From assembly GCA_002708845.1 (NCBI GenBank), contig PAPI01000022.1, forward strand, positions 124,001 through 188,000: 64,000 nt of DNA. The letters are read 5' to 3'. Below, piece by piece: positions 38,757 through 44,048 of the stretch; the stretch's first letter is position 1; each line of letters begins with the position of its first letter. The translations under genes and the position numbers were made by a program. This DNA is from Leeuwenhoekiella sp. (GTDB lineage Bacteria; Bacteroidota; Bacteroidia; Flavobacteriales; Flavobacteriaceae). The notes beneath the pieces are model-generated. The model was given only the letters and a program-made list of their open reading frames with translations, did no database searches and was not told the origin of the DNA.

Positions 38757-39653
38757 TTAGTTGCTGGTAAGCTCGTGAAACAATTGTTCAAGCGTGAGGT
38801 TTTTTCGATTGAGTTGCAGGGTTTTTAGTCCGTTATCATGGGCGAAATCAAATAGTGCAGGCCTCATGTCTTTGCTGGTGTTGAACGTAATCTCGTATAC
38901 AAATCCCTTTGTATTTTTAATAGATTCTACATAAGGCAACTTTTTAAGTGCCACTTCTTCAACCCGATAATCAAATTCAACCTCAATAAGCTGGTCTGCA
39001 GCTTCGGTTAGTTCTTTAAGATTTCTATCTGCTACGATTTTACCTTTATTGATGATGATTACCCGGTCACACATAGCTTCCACTTCCTGCATTACATGTG
39101 TCGAGAGTAATACGGTTTTGTCTTTACCAATAGTGCGTATAAGTTGTCTGATGTCCCGCAGCTGATTGGGGTCTAGCCCGGTTGTGGGTTCATCAAGAAT
39201 AAGAACCTCAGGATCATGCAGTAAAGCTGCCGCAAGGCCCACGCGTTGTTTGTATCCTTTGCTCAGTTGCTTTATTTTTTTAGAGATTTCCTGAGTAAGA
39301 CCAGTCATTTCGATAACCGTATCAATGCGTTGAGCCGGTGCTTTGCTCAGATTTGCCATGAGCTTAAGGTATTCTCTGACATACATGTCGGGGTACAGCG
39401 GATTGTTTTCAGCCAGATATCCTACGTTTTGCTGCACATTTGGCGAGGAGTCTTCAACTGAAAACCCGGTTACGATCGCTTTACCCGAAGTGGGTTTTAG
39501 CAAGGTCGTGAGTATTTTCATCAAAGTGCTTTTGCCTGCACCATTTGGTCCTAAAAAACCCGTGATTTCTCCTTTTTTAATTTCAAAGTTAACCCCATCA
39601 AGAGCTTTTTGTGCTCCATAGTTTTTTGAAATATCCTGAACCTGTATTGACAT
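38757..39653 (-). CDS. gldA: Gliding-motility-associated ABC transporter ATPase GldA
   Basis: 298 residues from ATG 39653 (MSIQVQDISKNYGAQKAL); the frame extends upstream to 39686 without support. ABC motifs are Walker A GPNGAGKSTLMKIL, signature LSKGYKQRVG, Walker B VLILDEPTTGLDP and a switch His in LLSTHVMQE. The opening and the HELTSN-type end are typical of GldA in flavobacteria. GldA pairs with GldF and GldG, which are not in the window. It is needed for gliding in some species. It is transcribed together with the EEP gene. Confidence 0.9.
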   Translation of the reverse strand: MSIQVQDISKNYGAQKALDGVNFEIKKGEITGFLGPNGAGKSTLMKILTTLLKPTSGKAIVTGFSVEDSSPNVQQNVGYLAENNPLYPDMYVREYLKLMANLSKAPAQRIDTVIEMTGLTQEISKKIKQLSKGYKQRVGLAAALLHDPEVLILDEPTTGLDPNQLRDIRQLIRTIGKDKTVLLSTHVMQEVEAMCDRVIIINKGKIVADRNLKELTEAADQLIEVEFDYRVEEVALKKLPYVESIKNTKGFVYEITFNTSKDMRPALFDFAHDNGLKTLQLNRKNLTLEQLFHELTSN

Positions 39654-39917
39654 AGTTTTTTGATACGTAGTGCTAAAATTACTCAATTAGAGAGGAGTCT
39701 CTTCTATATTAAAACTTAAAATTAAAAGGGAATAGTAAATATCAAGAGATTAAAATGATCGAGTGTAATGATATTTCTAACAAACGGTCCCAAATTAGAG
39801 TGCACTTTGTAATTCATTTAAAAAAAACAGCTGTTTTATTGAATATATGCAAAAGTTGTATGTTCTTCTAGCTGTTCTTAATTATTTAAGTACTTTAGCT
39901 GCGTAAAAATCAAGACA

Positions 39918-39989
39918 ATGATCAATTTTGGTTACTTCTTTAATCGCTATTACTTCTTTTTCTTTTGGAAAGAGACGGGACCGCTTTAG
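39918..39989 (+). CDS. Phe/Tyr-rich leader peptide of the aromatic operon
   Basis: A 23-codon ORF from ATG to TAG with seven Phe, three Tyr and one Trp codons (11 of 23), including the run YYFFFFW. It precedes pheA by about 100 bases. Its last codons contain CGGGACC (39976-39982), which can pair with GGTCCCG at 40017-40023. It is too short for usual gene callers. The role is ribosome-stalling control of the downstream operon. Confidence 0.85.
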   Translation: MINFGYFFNRYYFFFFWKETGPL

Positions 39990-40048
39990 AGTAACTTATA
40001 GTATATAACACACTGAGGTCCCGATTTAATAAATCGGGATTTTTTTTT
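39976..40048 (+). promoter_or_regulatory. Transcription attenuator (antiterminator/terminator) of pheA
   Basis: The terminator is TCCCGATTT/AAATCGGGA (40019-40027 with 40031-40039) followed by nine T residues (40040-40048). Its left arm is also complementary to CGGGACC inside the leader ORF (39976-39982 with 40017-40023). When ribosomes stall at Phe/Tyr codons this upstream segment is free and the antiterminator forms. When translation reaches the stop, the ribosome covers it and the terminator forms. This is a classical amino-acid attenuator. Confidence 0.85.
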
Positions 40049-40092
40049 GCCGGATTGAGATTGATAGCTAACAGTTAAATAACAGTAATACA

Positions 40093-40917
40093 TTGAAACA
40101 TACAGTTGCCATACAGGGAATACGAGGTTCTTTTCACCACAAAGTGGCGCAGGACTTTTTTGGTGAAGATGTTGATGTGGTGGCTTGTAGTAGTTTTCAG
40201 GATGTGGTTAACAGTTTGCTTAAAGACACAGCGACAGATGCAGTGATGGCTATCGAAAATTCAATCGCCGGAAGCATCATTCCCAATTACGCATTGATCG
40301 ATAAAAATAATCTCAATATTGAAGGTGAGCGTTATTTAGAGATAAGTCAGAATCTTATGGCAATGCCTGGTCAAAAGCTGGCAGACCTTAAGGAAGTGTG
40401 GTCGCACCCAATGGCATTGTTGCAGTGTAATGATTTTTTTCAGGACCACGAGCATATACGTCTCGTTGAGCAGGACGATACGGCCGCAGCAGCTATGCGC
40501 ATCGCCGAATCTGGAACAACAGGGGTGGGCGCTATTGCGAGTAAAACGGCGGCTCAGATTTATGGACTTGAGCTACTTGCAGAAGATATACAAACCATTA
40601 AGGCAAATTCCACACGTTTTTTTGTGTTGAATACTAACGGTCGCACAGAGGCCGATGTTCCTGATAAAGCTTCAGTTAAATTTCTGACTGATCATAAAAG
40701 AGGTAGCCTTGCAGCTGTACTCAACGTGATGAGTGATTGCCGTCTTAATTTGACAAAAATCCAATCACTACCTGTTATTGAAACACCCTGGAAATATGCT
40801 TTTTTTGTTGATGTAACTTTTGAGAATTACGAAGACTTTGAGAAGGCAAAAAAGCTTCTAGCTATTATGGCTCAGGAATTTAAAGTATTGGGCGAATATA
40901 AAAACCGAAAATCATGA
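40093..40917 (+). CDS. pheA: Prephenate dehydratase
   Basis: 274 residues from a TTG start; no ATG lies upstream in frame. It converts prephenate to phenylpyruvate in Phe synthesis. The N-terminal GIRGSFHHKVAQDFF and MAIENSIAGSIIPNY and the motif NSTRFFVLN are prephenate dehydratase signatures. A C-terminal ACT domain (about 193-274, DHKRGSLAAVLNVMSDCRLNLTKIQSLP) allows Phe feedback inhibition. It is first in the operon behind the attenuator and overlaps the aminotransferase by four bases. No chorismate mutase domain is fused; that activity is at the operon end. Confidence 0.94.
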   Translation: MKHTVAIQGIRGSFHHKVAQDFFGEDVDVVACSSFQDVVNSLLKDTATDAVMAIENSIAGSIIPNYALIDKNNLNIEGERYLEISQNLMAMPGQKLADLKEVWSHPMALLQCNDFFQDHEHIRLVEQDDTAAAAMRIAESGTTGVGAIASKTAAQIYGLELLAEDIQTIKANSTRFFVLNTNGRTEADVPDKASVKFLTDHKRGSLAAVLNVMSDCRLNLTKIQSLPVIETPWKYAFFVDVTFENYEDFEKAKKLLAIMAQEFKVLGEYKNRKS

Positions 40918-42068
40918 TTATAGATTCGGCAAACCGACTAAATCAAACCGCAGAGTACTACTTTTCGCGTAAACTAAAAGAAGTGCGTGCGCTTGCTGCC
41001 CAGGGAAAACCCATTATTAATATGGGTATCGGCAGTCCAGATTTACCACCACCACCTCATGTTATTGAGGCACTTACCAATTCATTGGTTGATGGTCCTG
41101 CGCATCAATACCAGAGTTATAAGGGATTGCCAGAGCTTACTGCTGCAATGTCAACGTTTTACGAAAACCAATATGGGGTAAAACTAGATGCTGAAAGCGA
41201 AATTTTACCGCTTATGGGGTCTAAAGAAGGCATCATGCACATCAGCATGGCTTTTTTGAATCCAGGAGATGAGGTGTTGATTCCTAATCCAGGTTATCCT
41301 ACCTATACTTCGGTAACCCGTTTAGTTGAGGCCGAGCCGGTGTATTACAATTTAGATGCTTCAAACAATTGGATGCCTGATTACGATGCTTTGGCGCAGC
41401 GTGATTTGAGTAAGGTAAAATTGATGTGGGTAAACTATCCGCATATGCCTACCGGAGCAAAAGCTACAAAGGCTGATTTTGAAAACCTAATTGCTTTCGC
41501 GAAAGCAAACCAAATACTATTGGTAAATGACAATCCGTATAGCTTTATTCTTAACGAAAATCCCCAAAGTATTCTCGCTGTTGAAGGAGCAAAAGATGTG
41601 GCTATAGAGCTCAATTCGCTGAGTAAATCGTTCAATATGTCAGGCTGGCGCGTAGGTATGTTGCTTGGAGCTTCAGACTACATCAATACGGTTCTTACCG
41701 TAAAGAGTAATATGGATAGCGGTATGTTTTACGGCATACAAAAAGGAGCCGCTGCAGTTTTAAAAGAAGGAAAAGAGTGGTTTGATTCGTTAAATACGGT
41801 ATATCAAAAACGCAGGGAACTGGCTTGGCAACTGGCAGATCTTTTAAACTGTGAATACAGCAAAGACACAGCGGGTATGTTTGTTTGGGCCAAATTGCCA
41901 GAAGGAGCCGGTGATGCTGAAGCTTTTATTGACGATATTCTTATCAACAAAAGCATATTCATTACTCCCGGAAGTATTTTTGGTTCTCAGGGAGCCGGCT
42001 ATATCCGCTTTTCGCTTTGCGTAACCGAAGATAAAATCAAAGAAGCAATAAGTAGACTCAAGAACTAG
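40914..42068 (+). CDS. PLP-dependent aminotransferase (class I/II)
   Basis: 384 residues, fold type I. The PLP lysine lies in NSLSKSFNMSGWRVG, and NDNPYSFIL carries the family Asp/Tyr. Its position between pheA and tyrA suggests it transaminates phenylpyruvate and hydroxyphenylpyruvate to Phe and Tyr, though aspartate or diaminopimelate specificities share the fold. The ATG overlaps the pheA stop by four bases (ATGA) and the last base overlaps the tyrA start, so the operon is tightly coupled. Confidence 0.9.
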   Translation: MIIDSANRLNQTAEYYFSRKLKEVRALAAQGKPIINMGIGSPDLPPPPHVIEALTNSLVDGPAHQYQSYKGLPELTAAMSTFYENQYGVKLDAESEILPLMGSKEGIMHISMAFLNPGDEVLIPNPGYPTYTSVTRLVEAEPVYYNLDASNNWMPDYDALAQRDLSKVKLMWVNYPHMPTGAKATKADFENLIAFAKANQILLVNDNPYSFILNENPQSILAVEGAKDVAIELNSLSKSFNMSGWRVGMLLGASDYINTVLTVKSNMDSGMFYGIQKGAAAVLKEGKEWFDSLNTVYQKRRELAWQLADLLNCEYSKDTAGMFVWAKLPEGAGDAEAFIDDILINKSIFITPGSIFGSQGAGYIRFSLCVTEDKIKEAISRLKN

Positions 42069-42928
42069 TGGAAGAATTTAAAAACATATTTGTTTTAGGG
42101 ATAGGTCTTATAGGCGGCTCAATGGCACGCGATTTAAGACGCATTTTACCTCAGGCAACCTTTTATGGGATTGATGCTAACGACGACCATCTTGACGAAG
42201 CGGTAGGTCTGGGCGTTATTGATCATTCCAGCAGGATTGAAGCCTTAAGTCAGGCAGATCTGGTTATCCTTTCGATTCCTGTAGATCAGGCCAATTTGTT
42301 TCTTCCGGCGGTTTTAGATGCTGTTGAATCGCAGGCTTTAGTACTAGATGTTGGTTCTACAAAGGGCAGTGTTTGCGATGCGGTTAAAGATCATCCCAAA
42401 CGCAGTCAGTTTCTTGCAGCACATCCTATTGCAGGAACCGAATTTTCAGGACCTTCAGCAGCTATTGAATACTTGTTTCAGCATAAAACCATGATTCTTT
42501 GCGAAGTAGAACAAACCCGCGAAGATCTTCTAGATAAGGCGATGCAGGTTTTTGAAGCCCTTGAAATGAATATTCGCTATATGAATCCGCATTCACACGA
42601 TAAGCATATTGCGTATGTATCGCATTTATCACACATAAGTAGTTTTATGCTGGGTAAAACTGTGATTGAAAAGGAGAAAAATGAGAAGGATATTTTTGAT
42701 ATGGCGGGTAGTGGTTTTGCTTCTACCGTGCGCCTGGCCAAAAGTAACCCGGCTACCTGGACGCCCATTTTTAAAGAAAATAAGGCCAATGTGCTTGAAA
42801 GCTTGACAGAGTATATAAATAATTTAACGCATTTTAAAAACGTTCTCGAAGCAGATGATTTTGAGGAGGTTTATAACGAAATGCACAATACAAACCACAT
42901 AAAATCAATTCTTAAAGGATTATCGTAA
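42068..42928 (+). CDS. tyrA: Prephenate dehydrogenase
   Basis: 286 residues, GTG start sharing a base with the aminotransferase stop. The Rossmann motif FVLGIGLIGGSMARDL near the N-terminus, LDVGSTKGSVCDAV and FLAAHPIAGTEFSGPSAA are TyrA signatures. It oxidatively decarboxylates prephenate to 4-hydroxyphenylpyruvate. There is no ACT domain, so feedback regulation may rest on the attenuator and on the DAHP synthase. It lies in the pheA operon. Confidence 0.93.
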   Translation: MEEFKNIFVLGIGLIGGSMARDLRRILPQATFYGIDANDDHLDEAVGLGVIDHSSRIEALSQADLVILSIPVDQANLFLPAVLDAVESQALVLDVGSTKGSVCDAVKDHPKRSQFLAAHPIAGTEFSGPSAAIEYLFQHKTMILCEVEQTREDLLDKAMQVFEALEMNIRYMNPHSHDKHIAYVSHLSHISSFMLGKTVIEKEKNEKDIFDMAGSGFASTVRLAKSNPATWTPIFKENKANVLESLTEYINNLTHFKNVLEADDFEEVYNEMHNTNHIKSILKGLS

Positions 42929-42956
42929 CCGGCTAAAAGCTGTAAATTTGTTGAAT

Positions 42957-44048
42957 ATGGAAAATAAGAAAGAACTTAGAAACTGGTTAGATGCATTCAA
43001 TCTGGACCACCCGCTTGTAATAGCCGGTCCATGTAGTGCAGAAACTGAAGAGCAGGTGCTTAAAATCGCACACGAGCTTAAAGACACTGATGCAACTGTT
43101 TTTAGAGCAGGTATCTGGAAACCACGTACCCGTCCCGGAATGTTTGAGGGTGTAGGTGCTTTGGGTCTGAAGTGGATGCAAAAAGCCAAAGAAGAAACCG
43201 GAATGCTTACCACGACTGAGGTAGCAAACCCAAATCACGTTGAGCTTGCGCTTAAGCATGACATCGATATTTTATGGATTGGTGCCCGTACTACAGTTTC
43301 TCCATTTAATATTCAGGAGATTGCAGAAGCTTTGAAAGGTACCGATAAGGTAGTTCTGATTAAAAACCCGGTTAACCCGGATTTGGCACTTTGGTTAGGA
43401 GCTGTAGAGCGTTTCTACACGCAAGACGTGAAAAATCTTGGTGTGATTCACAGAGGTTTTTCTACTTATGAAAAGACCAAATACCGTAACAATCCAGAGT
43501 GGCAATTGGCTGTAGATCTTCAGAATAAATTCCCGGATCTTCCATTAATTCTTGATCCATCGCATATTGCAGGGCGTCGTGATATCATTTTTGATTTGTG
43601 CCAGACCGGTCTTGATTTGAACTATGATGGGATTATGGTAGAAACCCATTACGATCCAGACAATGCATGGAGTGATGCCAAGCAGCAAATCACACCATCT
43701 ACTTTGGTTCAGATTATGAAAGACCTTAAAATCCGTAAGGAAGAAGGTACTGCGGCAGAATTTAATAATAAGCTAAATACCCTACGTACTCAGATTGATG
43801 TGGTAGACCATCAGTTGATTGAAAGTCTTGGGAAGCGTATGAAAATCGCCGATGCAATCGGGGAACTGAAAACGCAAAATAACGTAGCGATTTTACAATC
43901 TAAGCGTTGGAATGAGATCCTTGGAGCGATGATTCTTGAAGGAGAACAACACAACCTGAGTGAAGAATTTATTCTTCGTGTGTTTAAAGCGATTCACCAG
44001 GAGTCAATCAACCACCAGAAAAAAATCTCCAGAATGGAGGAAGCTTAG
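42957..44048 (+). CDS. Bifunctional DAHP synthase / chorismate mutase
   Basis: 363 residues. The start ATG 42957 (MENKKELRNW) was chosen over two preceding in-frame TTG codons. The N-terminal 265 residues are a type I-beta-like DAHP synthase (LVIAGPCSAETEEQV, FRAGIWKPRTRPG, LIKNPVNPDL, LDPSHIAGRRDI). Residues about 275-360 form an AroQ-type chorismate mutase (TLRTQIDVVDHQLIESLGKR, EEFILRVFKAIHQESI). It thus provides the first step of the shikimate pathway and the branch point to Phe/Tyr. Domain fusion in this order is known from Bacteroidota. A -7-like TAAATTTG just upstream might give a second internal promoter. Confidence 0.93.
   Translation: MENKKELRNWLDAFNLDHPLVIAGPCSAETEEQVLKIAHELKDTDATVFRAGIWKPRTRPGMFEGVGALGLKWMQKAKEETGMLTTTEVANPNHVELALKHDIDILWIGARTTVSPFNIQEIAEALKGTDKVVLIKNPVNPDLALWLGAVERFYTQDVKNLGVIHRGFSTYEKTKYRNNPEWQLAVDLQNKFPDLPLILDPSHIAGRRDIIFDLCQTGLDLNYDGIMVETHYDPDNAWSDAKQQITPSTLVQIMKDLKIRKEEGTAAEFNNKLNTLRTQIDVVDHQLIESLGKRMKIADAIGELKTQNNVAILQSKRWNEILGAMILEGEQHNLSEEFILRVFKAIHQESINHQKKISRMEEA

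Follow-up and report, generated by a model that had tools for sequence, protein, structure and literature searches.

The stretch of Leeuwenhoekiella sp. DNA analyzed here (64,000 nucleotides; assembly GCA_002708845.1, contig PAPI01000022.1, positions 124,001 to 188,000 of the forward strand; hereafter the window, in whose coordinates positions are given) carries a predicted four-gene operon for phenylalanine and tyrosine biosynthesis, and in front of its first gene, pheA, lie a short open reading frame (ORF) crowded with aromatic codons and an intrinsic terminator. A preliminary description of this DNA had taken the arrangement for a leader peptide and attenuator, and the present analysis follows up that proposal. 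The features concerned are as follows.

39918-39989, plus strand: leader peptide ORF of 23 codons and a TAG stop, translation MINFGYFFNRYYFFFFWKETGPL followed by the stop
39933-39965, plus strand: putative control codons 6-16, Tyr Phe Phe Asn Arg Tyr Tyr Phe Phe Phe Phe
39966-39968, plus strand: Trp codon 17, directly after the control codons
39976-39982, plus strand: S1 (CGGGACC), putative 5' strand of the antiterminator, in the final leader codons; pairs and covaries with 40017-40023
40017-40023, plus strand: shared strand GGTCCCG, putative 3' strand of the antiterminator and part of the terminator left arm
40015-40043, plus strand: intrinsic terminator hairpin of 13 pairs, from the terminator scan; overlaps the T run
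40040-40048, plus strand: run of nine T, read from the sequence
40093-40917, plus strand: pheA, prephenate dehydratase, TTG start (PF00800, E 3.6e-55)
40914-42068, plus strand: class I/II aminotransferase (PF00155)
42068-42928, plus strand: tyrA, prephenate dehydrogenase, GTG start (NF006307, over its cut-off)
42948-44048, plus strand: DAHP synthase-chorismate mutase fusion (PF00793 and PF01817), start as given in the ORF list

Translation of 39918-39989 returns the ORF that had been described, with seven Phe, three Tyr and one Trp among its 23 codons, and the accompanying claims proved accurate in position and pairing: CGGGACC is complementary to GGTCCCG, which overlaps the left arm of a strong terminator with nine T, and the terminator begins after a gap of 25 nt from the end of the ORF. 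Among 2100 short ORFs (12-45 codons) on both strands of the window, this is the sole one with at least nine aromatic residues that make up at least 40% of the peptide; when the 406 nt upstream of pheA were dinucleotide-shuffled, none of 5000 shuffles reached 11 aromatic residues and 45%, and eight of 5000 reached nine and 40%. Codons 6-8 and 11-16 are aromatic in all 12 distinct leaders of the genus, with synonymous changes, and codon 8 is TTT, TAT or TGG only, i.e. Phe, Tyr or Trp.

The layout recurs widely upstream of pheA. By a strict call (ATG start, at least six aromatic residues making up at least 25% of the peptide, and a terminator no more than 90 nt away) it is present at 113 of 145 pheA loci, as opposed to 1 of 1450 shuffled regions and 1 of 145 reverse strands, and with relaxed start codons 115 of 146 loci are flagged. 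Loci are given here by L numbers; L105 duplicates L077, leaving 112 distinct leaders among the 113 called. By rank, the strict layout is found at 13 of 13 loci in Leeuwenhoekiella and 90 of 94 in other genera of the family Flavobacteriaceae (103 of 107 for the whole family, a count that took in 60 further pheA matches, not all of them), then at 4 of 15 in other families of the order, 4 of 9 in other orders of the class and 2 of 14 in other classes of the phylum; 20 additional stretches stand outside these counts. The misses L053, L094, L126 and L134 have a leader and a terminator by eye, yet fail the strict rule, and the 11 misses in the order include seven genomes of ~0.6 Mb from another family that have pheA and no called leader and terminator (L111, L113, L114, L117, L118, L119 and L121). 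Among 20 named loci a leader and terminator are present in 17, the rest being two uncultured Aquimarina loci with a leader and no called terminator (L239, L245) and a Cyclobacterium locus with neither (L244); several named loci of Leeuwenhoekiella come from genomes already counted among the genus loci, and are not independent. Of the residues that follow the start in the 112 distinct leaders, 23.6% are Phe and 15.8% are Tyr; every one of the 112 has Tyr, and 74 have Trp.

One alternative, an ordinary terminator next to a chance ORF, can appeal to the one terminator-like site per 2 kb that the scan leads one to expect, and to the other terminators of this genome, which score no more than 37.5 bits with the covariance model described below; it has to contend with an ORF-terminator pair at 113 of 145 pheA loci versus 1 of 1450 shuffles, and with an upstream neighbour, a GldA family gene at 38757-39686, that lies on the minus strand and is divergent. 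Since that gene is on the minus strand, the terminator ends no upstream transcript, and a role as the terminator of the neighbouring gene was rejected. We regard coincidence as an almost negligible explanation: the leader ORF and terminator layout is real and beyond chance.

As far as comparison of the sequences can tell, S1, the left arm and the right arm change together between species. S1 pairs with the left arm of its own species at -11.3 kcal/mol and with left arms taken from other species at -8.5 (n=112; equalled in 0 of 5000 permutations), and in partner-swap tests the z values are -18.9 for the two terminator arms and -14.8 for S1 with the left arm. Alignments (A1 and A2) were built from 60 of the 112 distinct leaders, hand-chosen for spread; in these 60 the terminator helix is paired in 97% of cells, with double-sided changes in nine of nine counted pairs. 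On a trimmed alignment S1 and the left arm are paired in 95.6% of cells, compared with 90.6% after whole-arm swaps (0 of 2000, n=60), and show 21 double changes against 7.3 after the swaps (0 of 2000). The check that the preliminary description had proposed, alignment of the upstream regions of other Flavobacteriaceae, has thus been run, and both the aromatic codons and the covarying helices are conserved in the family.

These changes also bear on the possibility that the ORF is a small functional protein, or that the terminated leader RNA or its peptide acts in trans, the operon being read through at a fixed rate. In its favour, the peptide is conserved inside the genus, and a trans-acting trp leader peptide is reported in Sinorhizobium (PMC7298713); between genera, by contrast, chiefly the aromatic character of the peptide is retained, and, in the alignments read by eye, the tail codons of the leader follow the pairing of S1, which lies in a different reading frame in one clade. 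Among the best 80 matches of the covariance model, moreover, 79 are on the same strand and contig as pheA. We judge this reading very unlikely, and the leader may have an additional role in trans.

The covariance model was built from 60 leaders, that of the window included. In this genome it gives one strong match of 101.7 bits, followed by a next best of 37.5; ten of the 27 weaker matches were inspected and by eye resemble ordinary terminators, so that further copies of the element were rejected for those inspected. The model matches 134 of 149 family genomes at E <=0.01, namely 127 of the 130 that bear pheA and 7 of the 19 that do not (Fisher p 1.2e-10); at E <=1e-4 the corresponding numbers are 122 of 130 and 3 of 19 (p 4.9e-13). 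Many of the 130 pheA-bearing genomes also supplied leaders to the model, and the lists of model and pheA matches were combined by hand. The best 80 matches include 77 within 200 nt of pheA, with a median gap of 27, and the one match without pheA on its strand and contig runs to the end of its contig. Three strong matches fall in pheA-less genomes: L188 before phenylalanine hydroxylase, L186 before DAHP synthase and L201 at a contig edge.

Terminator-type riboswitches, T-boxes and protein-bound attenuators also act through a terminator and an alternative pairing, and in any of them the short ORF would be incidental. The region holds no Rfam 15 family at gathering score, which led us to reject a known RNA family, riboswitch or other, and at E <=1 it brings up two weak small-RNA families. 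The distance from ATG to the end of the terminator is ~125 nt, over half of it coding, the aromatic codons are kept through synonymous change with codon 8 swapping among Phe, Tyr and Trp, and in a few genomes codon identity tracks the downstream gene (see below), all of which makes an attenuator of this other class very improbable. The Bacteroid-trp family (RF01692), a tryptophan peptide leader by its Rfam description, does not match the pheA leader of the window at gathering score; of 20 loci scanned, it matched the trp locus L181 only. RF01692 itself is found at E <=0.001 in 43 of 60 family genomes and exceeds its cut-off in 37.

Two further leaders were seen in the genome of the window. On contig C32, a Trp leader, MKNRITNTWWWISQL, and a terminator (L181, 221-334) form the locus matched by RF01692. 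On contig C24, hisG is directly preceded by a His leader, MKAKQLHHHHFYSRTQAR, which has four His codons in a row, and by a terminator (L172, ~1191-1311); this leader has no Rfam match at gathering score.

The order and spacing of codons, S1 and terminator fit ribosome-mediated attenuation when modelled. From the first base of the last Phe or Tyr codon to S1 the median distance is 14 nt (interquartile range 12-14, n=112; in the window the last Phe codon starts 13 nt 5' of S1), and S1 ends a median of 8.5 nt upstream of the stop codon (n=112). Folding was computed on the assumption that a ribosome masks the RNA from 17 nt upstream to 11 nt downstream of the first base of the A-site codon. As long as the right arm has yet to be transcribed, the antiterminator has a predicted probability of 0.94 with the ribosome at a middle Phe/Tyr codon, 0.87 at the last one and 0.02 at the stop. 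The truncated RNA without a ribosome has a mean antiterminator probability of 0.60 (above 0.5 in 62% and below 0.1 in 16% of the 112), and that of the window 0.97. For the window sequence the probability stays at 0.98-0.99 up to and including codon 16, falls to 0.67 at Trp codon 17 and reaches 0.01 at codon 18; the sharpness of this drop is due to the assumed footprint, and the informative part is where the aromatic run ends. With a folding probability of 0.67, Trp codon 17 is borderline as a control codon.

Taken with the comparative evidence, this makes it very probable that the element is a ribosome-mediated transcription attenuator of pheA, the aminotransferase, tyrA and the DAHP synthase-chorismate mutase. 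Its signals would be charged tRNA-Phe and tRNA-Tyr, with tRNA-Trp as a possible third. Transcription would start a short distance 5' of the leader ATG. When Phe and Tyr are plentiful, the ribosome would reach the TAG and cover S1 (39976-39982), leaving the left arm (40017-40023) free, so that the terminator would form and transcription would stop near 40048. When Phe or Tyr is short, the ribosome would stall among the aromatic codons and leave S1 free to pair with the left arm, which would block the terminator and allow pheA, the aminotransferase, tyrA and DAHP synthase-chorismate mutase to be transcribed. We infer the start site, the stalling of the ribosome, coupling, co-transcription of the operon and the change in read-through. 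Control of these four genes by Phe and Tyr, as originally suggested, is supported comparatively; the suggestion that both shortages are needed together is better replaced by a shortage of Phe or Tyr, because a ribosome stalled at any one Phe or Tyr codon ought to be enough.

The properties expected of leader-peptide attenuators are recognizable at the locus. A short ORF rich in codons for the end products and a terminator before the first structural gene are both present; the strand that would form the antiterminator lies in or next to the leader ORF, although its pairing was not borne out on alignment A1; and the codons are so placed that a stalled ribosome would free S1 and one at the stop codon would cover it, given the assumed footprint edges. 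The layout had been likened to ribosome-mediated attenuation, and the likeness stands, in that codons, terminator and alternative pairing are conserved and covarying and their order and spacing fit. A protector helix (1:2) hiding S1 is not supported, the pairing of S1 with upstream sequence (z -4.1) being hardly beyond that of a meaningless control (z -3.2), so that an untranslated leader is predicted to read through.

Several observations weigh against an attenuator of this kind. Two pairings meant as controls also reach z values of -3.2 and -4.1, so shared ancestry alone may account for a z of about 4, and the swap permutations ignore the relatedness of species. On alignment A1 the S1-left helix is paired in 73.1% of cells and has two double-change pairs compared with 2.6 in shuffles (450 of 500 shuffles reach it), a weak result that we attribute to one clade being one column off; the positive result required that the leaders be trimmed to the sequence 3' of the aromatic run and re-aligned, with the terminator setting the register of the left arm. 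Outside the family, 28 of 38 pheA loci fail the strict call. The terminator alone is unremarkable, a scan of 39000-41000 giving a single site, or one in 2 kb, against a shuffle mean of 1.6, and the folding energy of the region is mildly unusual (z -1.97); it is its conservation and covariation across relatives that lift the terminator above chance. In 9 of the 112 leaders S1 extends beyond the start of the stop codon, and the edges of the ribosome mask are assumed. Finally, the full-length RNA at equilibrium prefers the terminator (0.93) with the ribosome at the stop or with none, so that the choice of antitermination must occur during transcription.

Two further features of the leader region are more tentative.

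39891-39898, plus strand: promoter -7-like element, TACTTTAG, of the TAnnTTTG type with one mismatch
39955-39975, plus strand: possible hairpin P1, the Phe-codon run pairing with the purine-rich codons after it, in the minimum-free-energy fold

The first we liken to TAnnTTTG, which we take to be the -7 consensus of Bacteroidota. The relaxed motif TAnnTT[A/T]G occurs 10-50 nt 5' of the leader ATG in 99 of 112 leaders (50 shuffle rounds: mean 9.1, maximum 17), and its position predicts that the transcript has very little sequence 5' of the leader; exact TAnnTTTG is weak, occurring within 80 nt in 15 of 112 leaders at a shuffle rate of 5.8%. No -33 element was identified upstream of the leader, and a sigma-70 promoter scan gave a single minus-strand site and nothing useful. 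P1 reaches z -8.5 in the swap test, compared with -3.2 and -4.1 for the control pairings; it adjoins S1 and might act as a pause hairpin or else stack against the antiterminator.

The pheA gene of the window has its best NCBIfam matches among prephenate dehydratases, with scores under their cut-offs, is 97% identical in L. nanhaiensis, and has its TTG start at the identical place in the relatives L226-L231 and L233. The distance between leader and gene, and the order of the genes, vary in some relatives. In L200 (~235-655) leader and pheA are 520 nt apart, and between them four similar repeats of ~110 nt, each with a GC-rich inverted repeat, are seen by eye. In L197 (319-925) an ORF resembling an IS200-type or repetitive extragenic palindrome (REP)-associated transposase, which we take it to be from the motif LPNHFHLVFR, separates the leader terminator from pheA. 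DAHP synthase comes immediately after pheA in nine family genomes (L184, L187, L189-L195), where no aminotransferase intervenes; the leader there precedes pheA and retains Phe and Tyr codons.

Judged from the sequences at hand, the control codons of such leaders change with the downstream gene in a few genomes. The comparison took in 20 of the 21 family genomes that gave no pheA match; PF00800 is found in none of the 20, and DAHP synthase in 16. Fifteen DAHP synthase regions were counted, leaving aside L224, which lacks its upstream sequence, and L225, a second, distant DAHP synthase; L210 offers only 177 nt upstream. Within 250 nt 5' of the lone DAHP synthase, TGGTGG occurs in 6 of these 15 regions (shuffles: mean 0.34, maximum 2) and in 2 of 145 pheA upstream regions; no Trp-Trp occurs in the 112 pheA leaders. 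In all six cases (L211, L212, L213, L214, L215 and L223) the Trp-Trp codons belong to a short ORF with a terminator-like hairpin after it, and a seventh DAHP synthase leader, L209, has a single Trp codon. None of the seven locus stretches yielded a pheA, an aminotransferase or a tyrA.

Phenylalanine hydroxylase (PF00351), present in 7 of 199 family genomes, is preceded by a Tyr-rich leader and terminator in three of the seven, with four or five Tyr codons: L205 (MKNLNNTYYYYPILTRRIGQ) and L208 (MKTNRIYTIYMYTFYHRWRAR) are from genomes without a pheA match, and the genome of L203 (MINTNIYYYYYPLLNFRIG, GTG start) also has a pheA with its own leader (L123). Pairing of the ORF tail with the left arm is equalled by 0 of 200 shuffles for L205, 4 of 200 for L208 and 0 of 200 for L203.

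From these cases we propose that Bacteroidota possess modular, probably protector-less leader-peptide attenuators re-tuned to the product of the aromatic gene that follows (Phe/Tyr, often with one Trp, for the pheA operon; mainly Tyr for phenylalanine hydroxylase; Trp-Trp for a lone DAHP synthase without pheA), a generalization to which we give an even chance of being right. Such re-tuning has to be set against the 8 of 15 DAHP synthase regions and the 4 of 7 phenylalanine hydroxylase loci that have no such leader, and against the uneven alternative pairing of the DAHP synthase leaders, for which 0 to 56 of 200 shuffles do as well (no more than 12 for L209, L211, L213 and L215; 16 for L223, 39 for L214 and 56 for L212), the pairing found for L211 falling in the Trp codons. 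The comparison involves small numbers, and some of the genomes are incomplete.

Two classical attenuators invite comparison. In enterobacteria the pheA leader (pheL) consists of a short Phe-rich ORF, a terminator and an alternative helix before pheA, and the Leeuwenhoekiella element resembles it in all three, 5' of the same gene; unlike pheL, it has Phe and Tyr codons (often with one Trp in relatives), precedes a four-gene Phe/Tyr operon, and has no supported protector helix and no Rfam match. In the four-segment scheme of the E. coli trp and pheA leaders, the protector helix 1:2 hides the antiterminator strand in the untranslated leader, whereas the untranslated Leeuwenhoekiella leader is predicted to read through. 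Bacteroid-trp is closer in phylogeny, being a leader peptide with control codons and a terminator in the same phylum, and differs in its control codons, which are Trp rather than Phe/Tyr.

In the literature searched the element is partly foreshadowed. A table published in 2005 (PMC1173090, Table 7) places a putative attenuator before pheA > hisHb > aroAI-beta-aroQ > tyrA of Bacteroides thetaiotaomicron, a prediction before the equivalent operon in the same phylum; the entry derives from a website of predicted attenuators, and the passage names no leader peptide. In 2021, structured 5' elements without an Rfam hit were listed upstream of pheA and hisG in Flavobacterium psychrophilum and also in other genera, together with hints of attenuation by leader peptides in front of amino acid operons (PMC9723704). 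The F. psychrophilum pheA element is like ours a structured element 5' of pheA; the main-text passages give no leader sequence, codons, pairing or covariation. Bacteroid-trp is listed in PMC2864571 and placed in F. psychrophilum in PMC6414381, and short ORFs reminiscent of leader peptides are noted in B. thetaiotaomicron in PMC7366714; the main text of PMC2965389 has no occurrence of 'Bacteroid', 'Flavobacter' or 'Cytophaga'. The literature searched, to which most subscription papers and supplements did not belong, yielded no account of the leader sequence, of how it covaries or of its changing codons. Attenuation in Bacteroidota, which had been called little studied, is indeed little described there, and at the same time not wholly unreported (PMC1173090, PMC9723704).

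Together, these results indicate, on comparative grounds, that the element is a real and widely conserved leader-peptide attenuator of a known kind. Earlier hints, a table entry of 2005 and a transcriptome list of 2021, thereby become a regulatory element that is defined and can be located with a covariance model. The match between codons and the product of the downstream gene is an unusual strand of evidence, and the codon changes amount to a natural experiment that makes codon-specific sensing directly testable. Bacteroidota are thought to initiate translation with little use of Shine-Dalgarno signals, and the mechanism assumes coupling of transcription and translation, so that the element could provide a way to assay coupling in this phylum. 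If the protector-less reading is true, failed translation would turn the operon on, not off.
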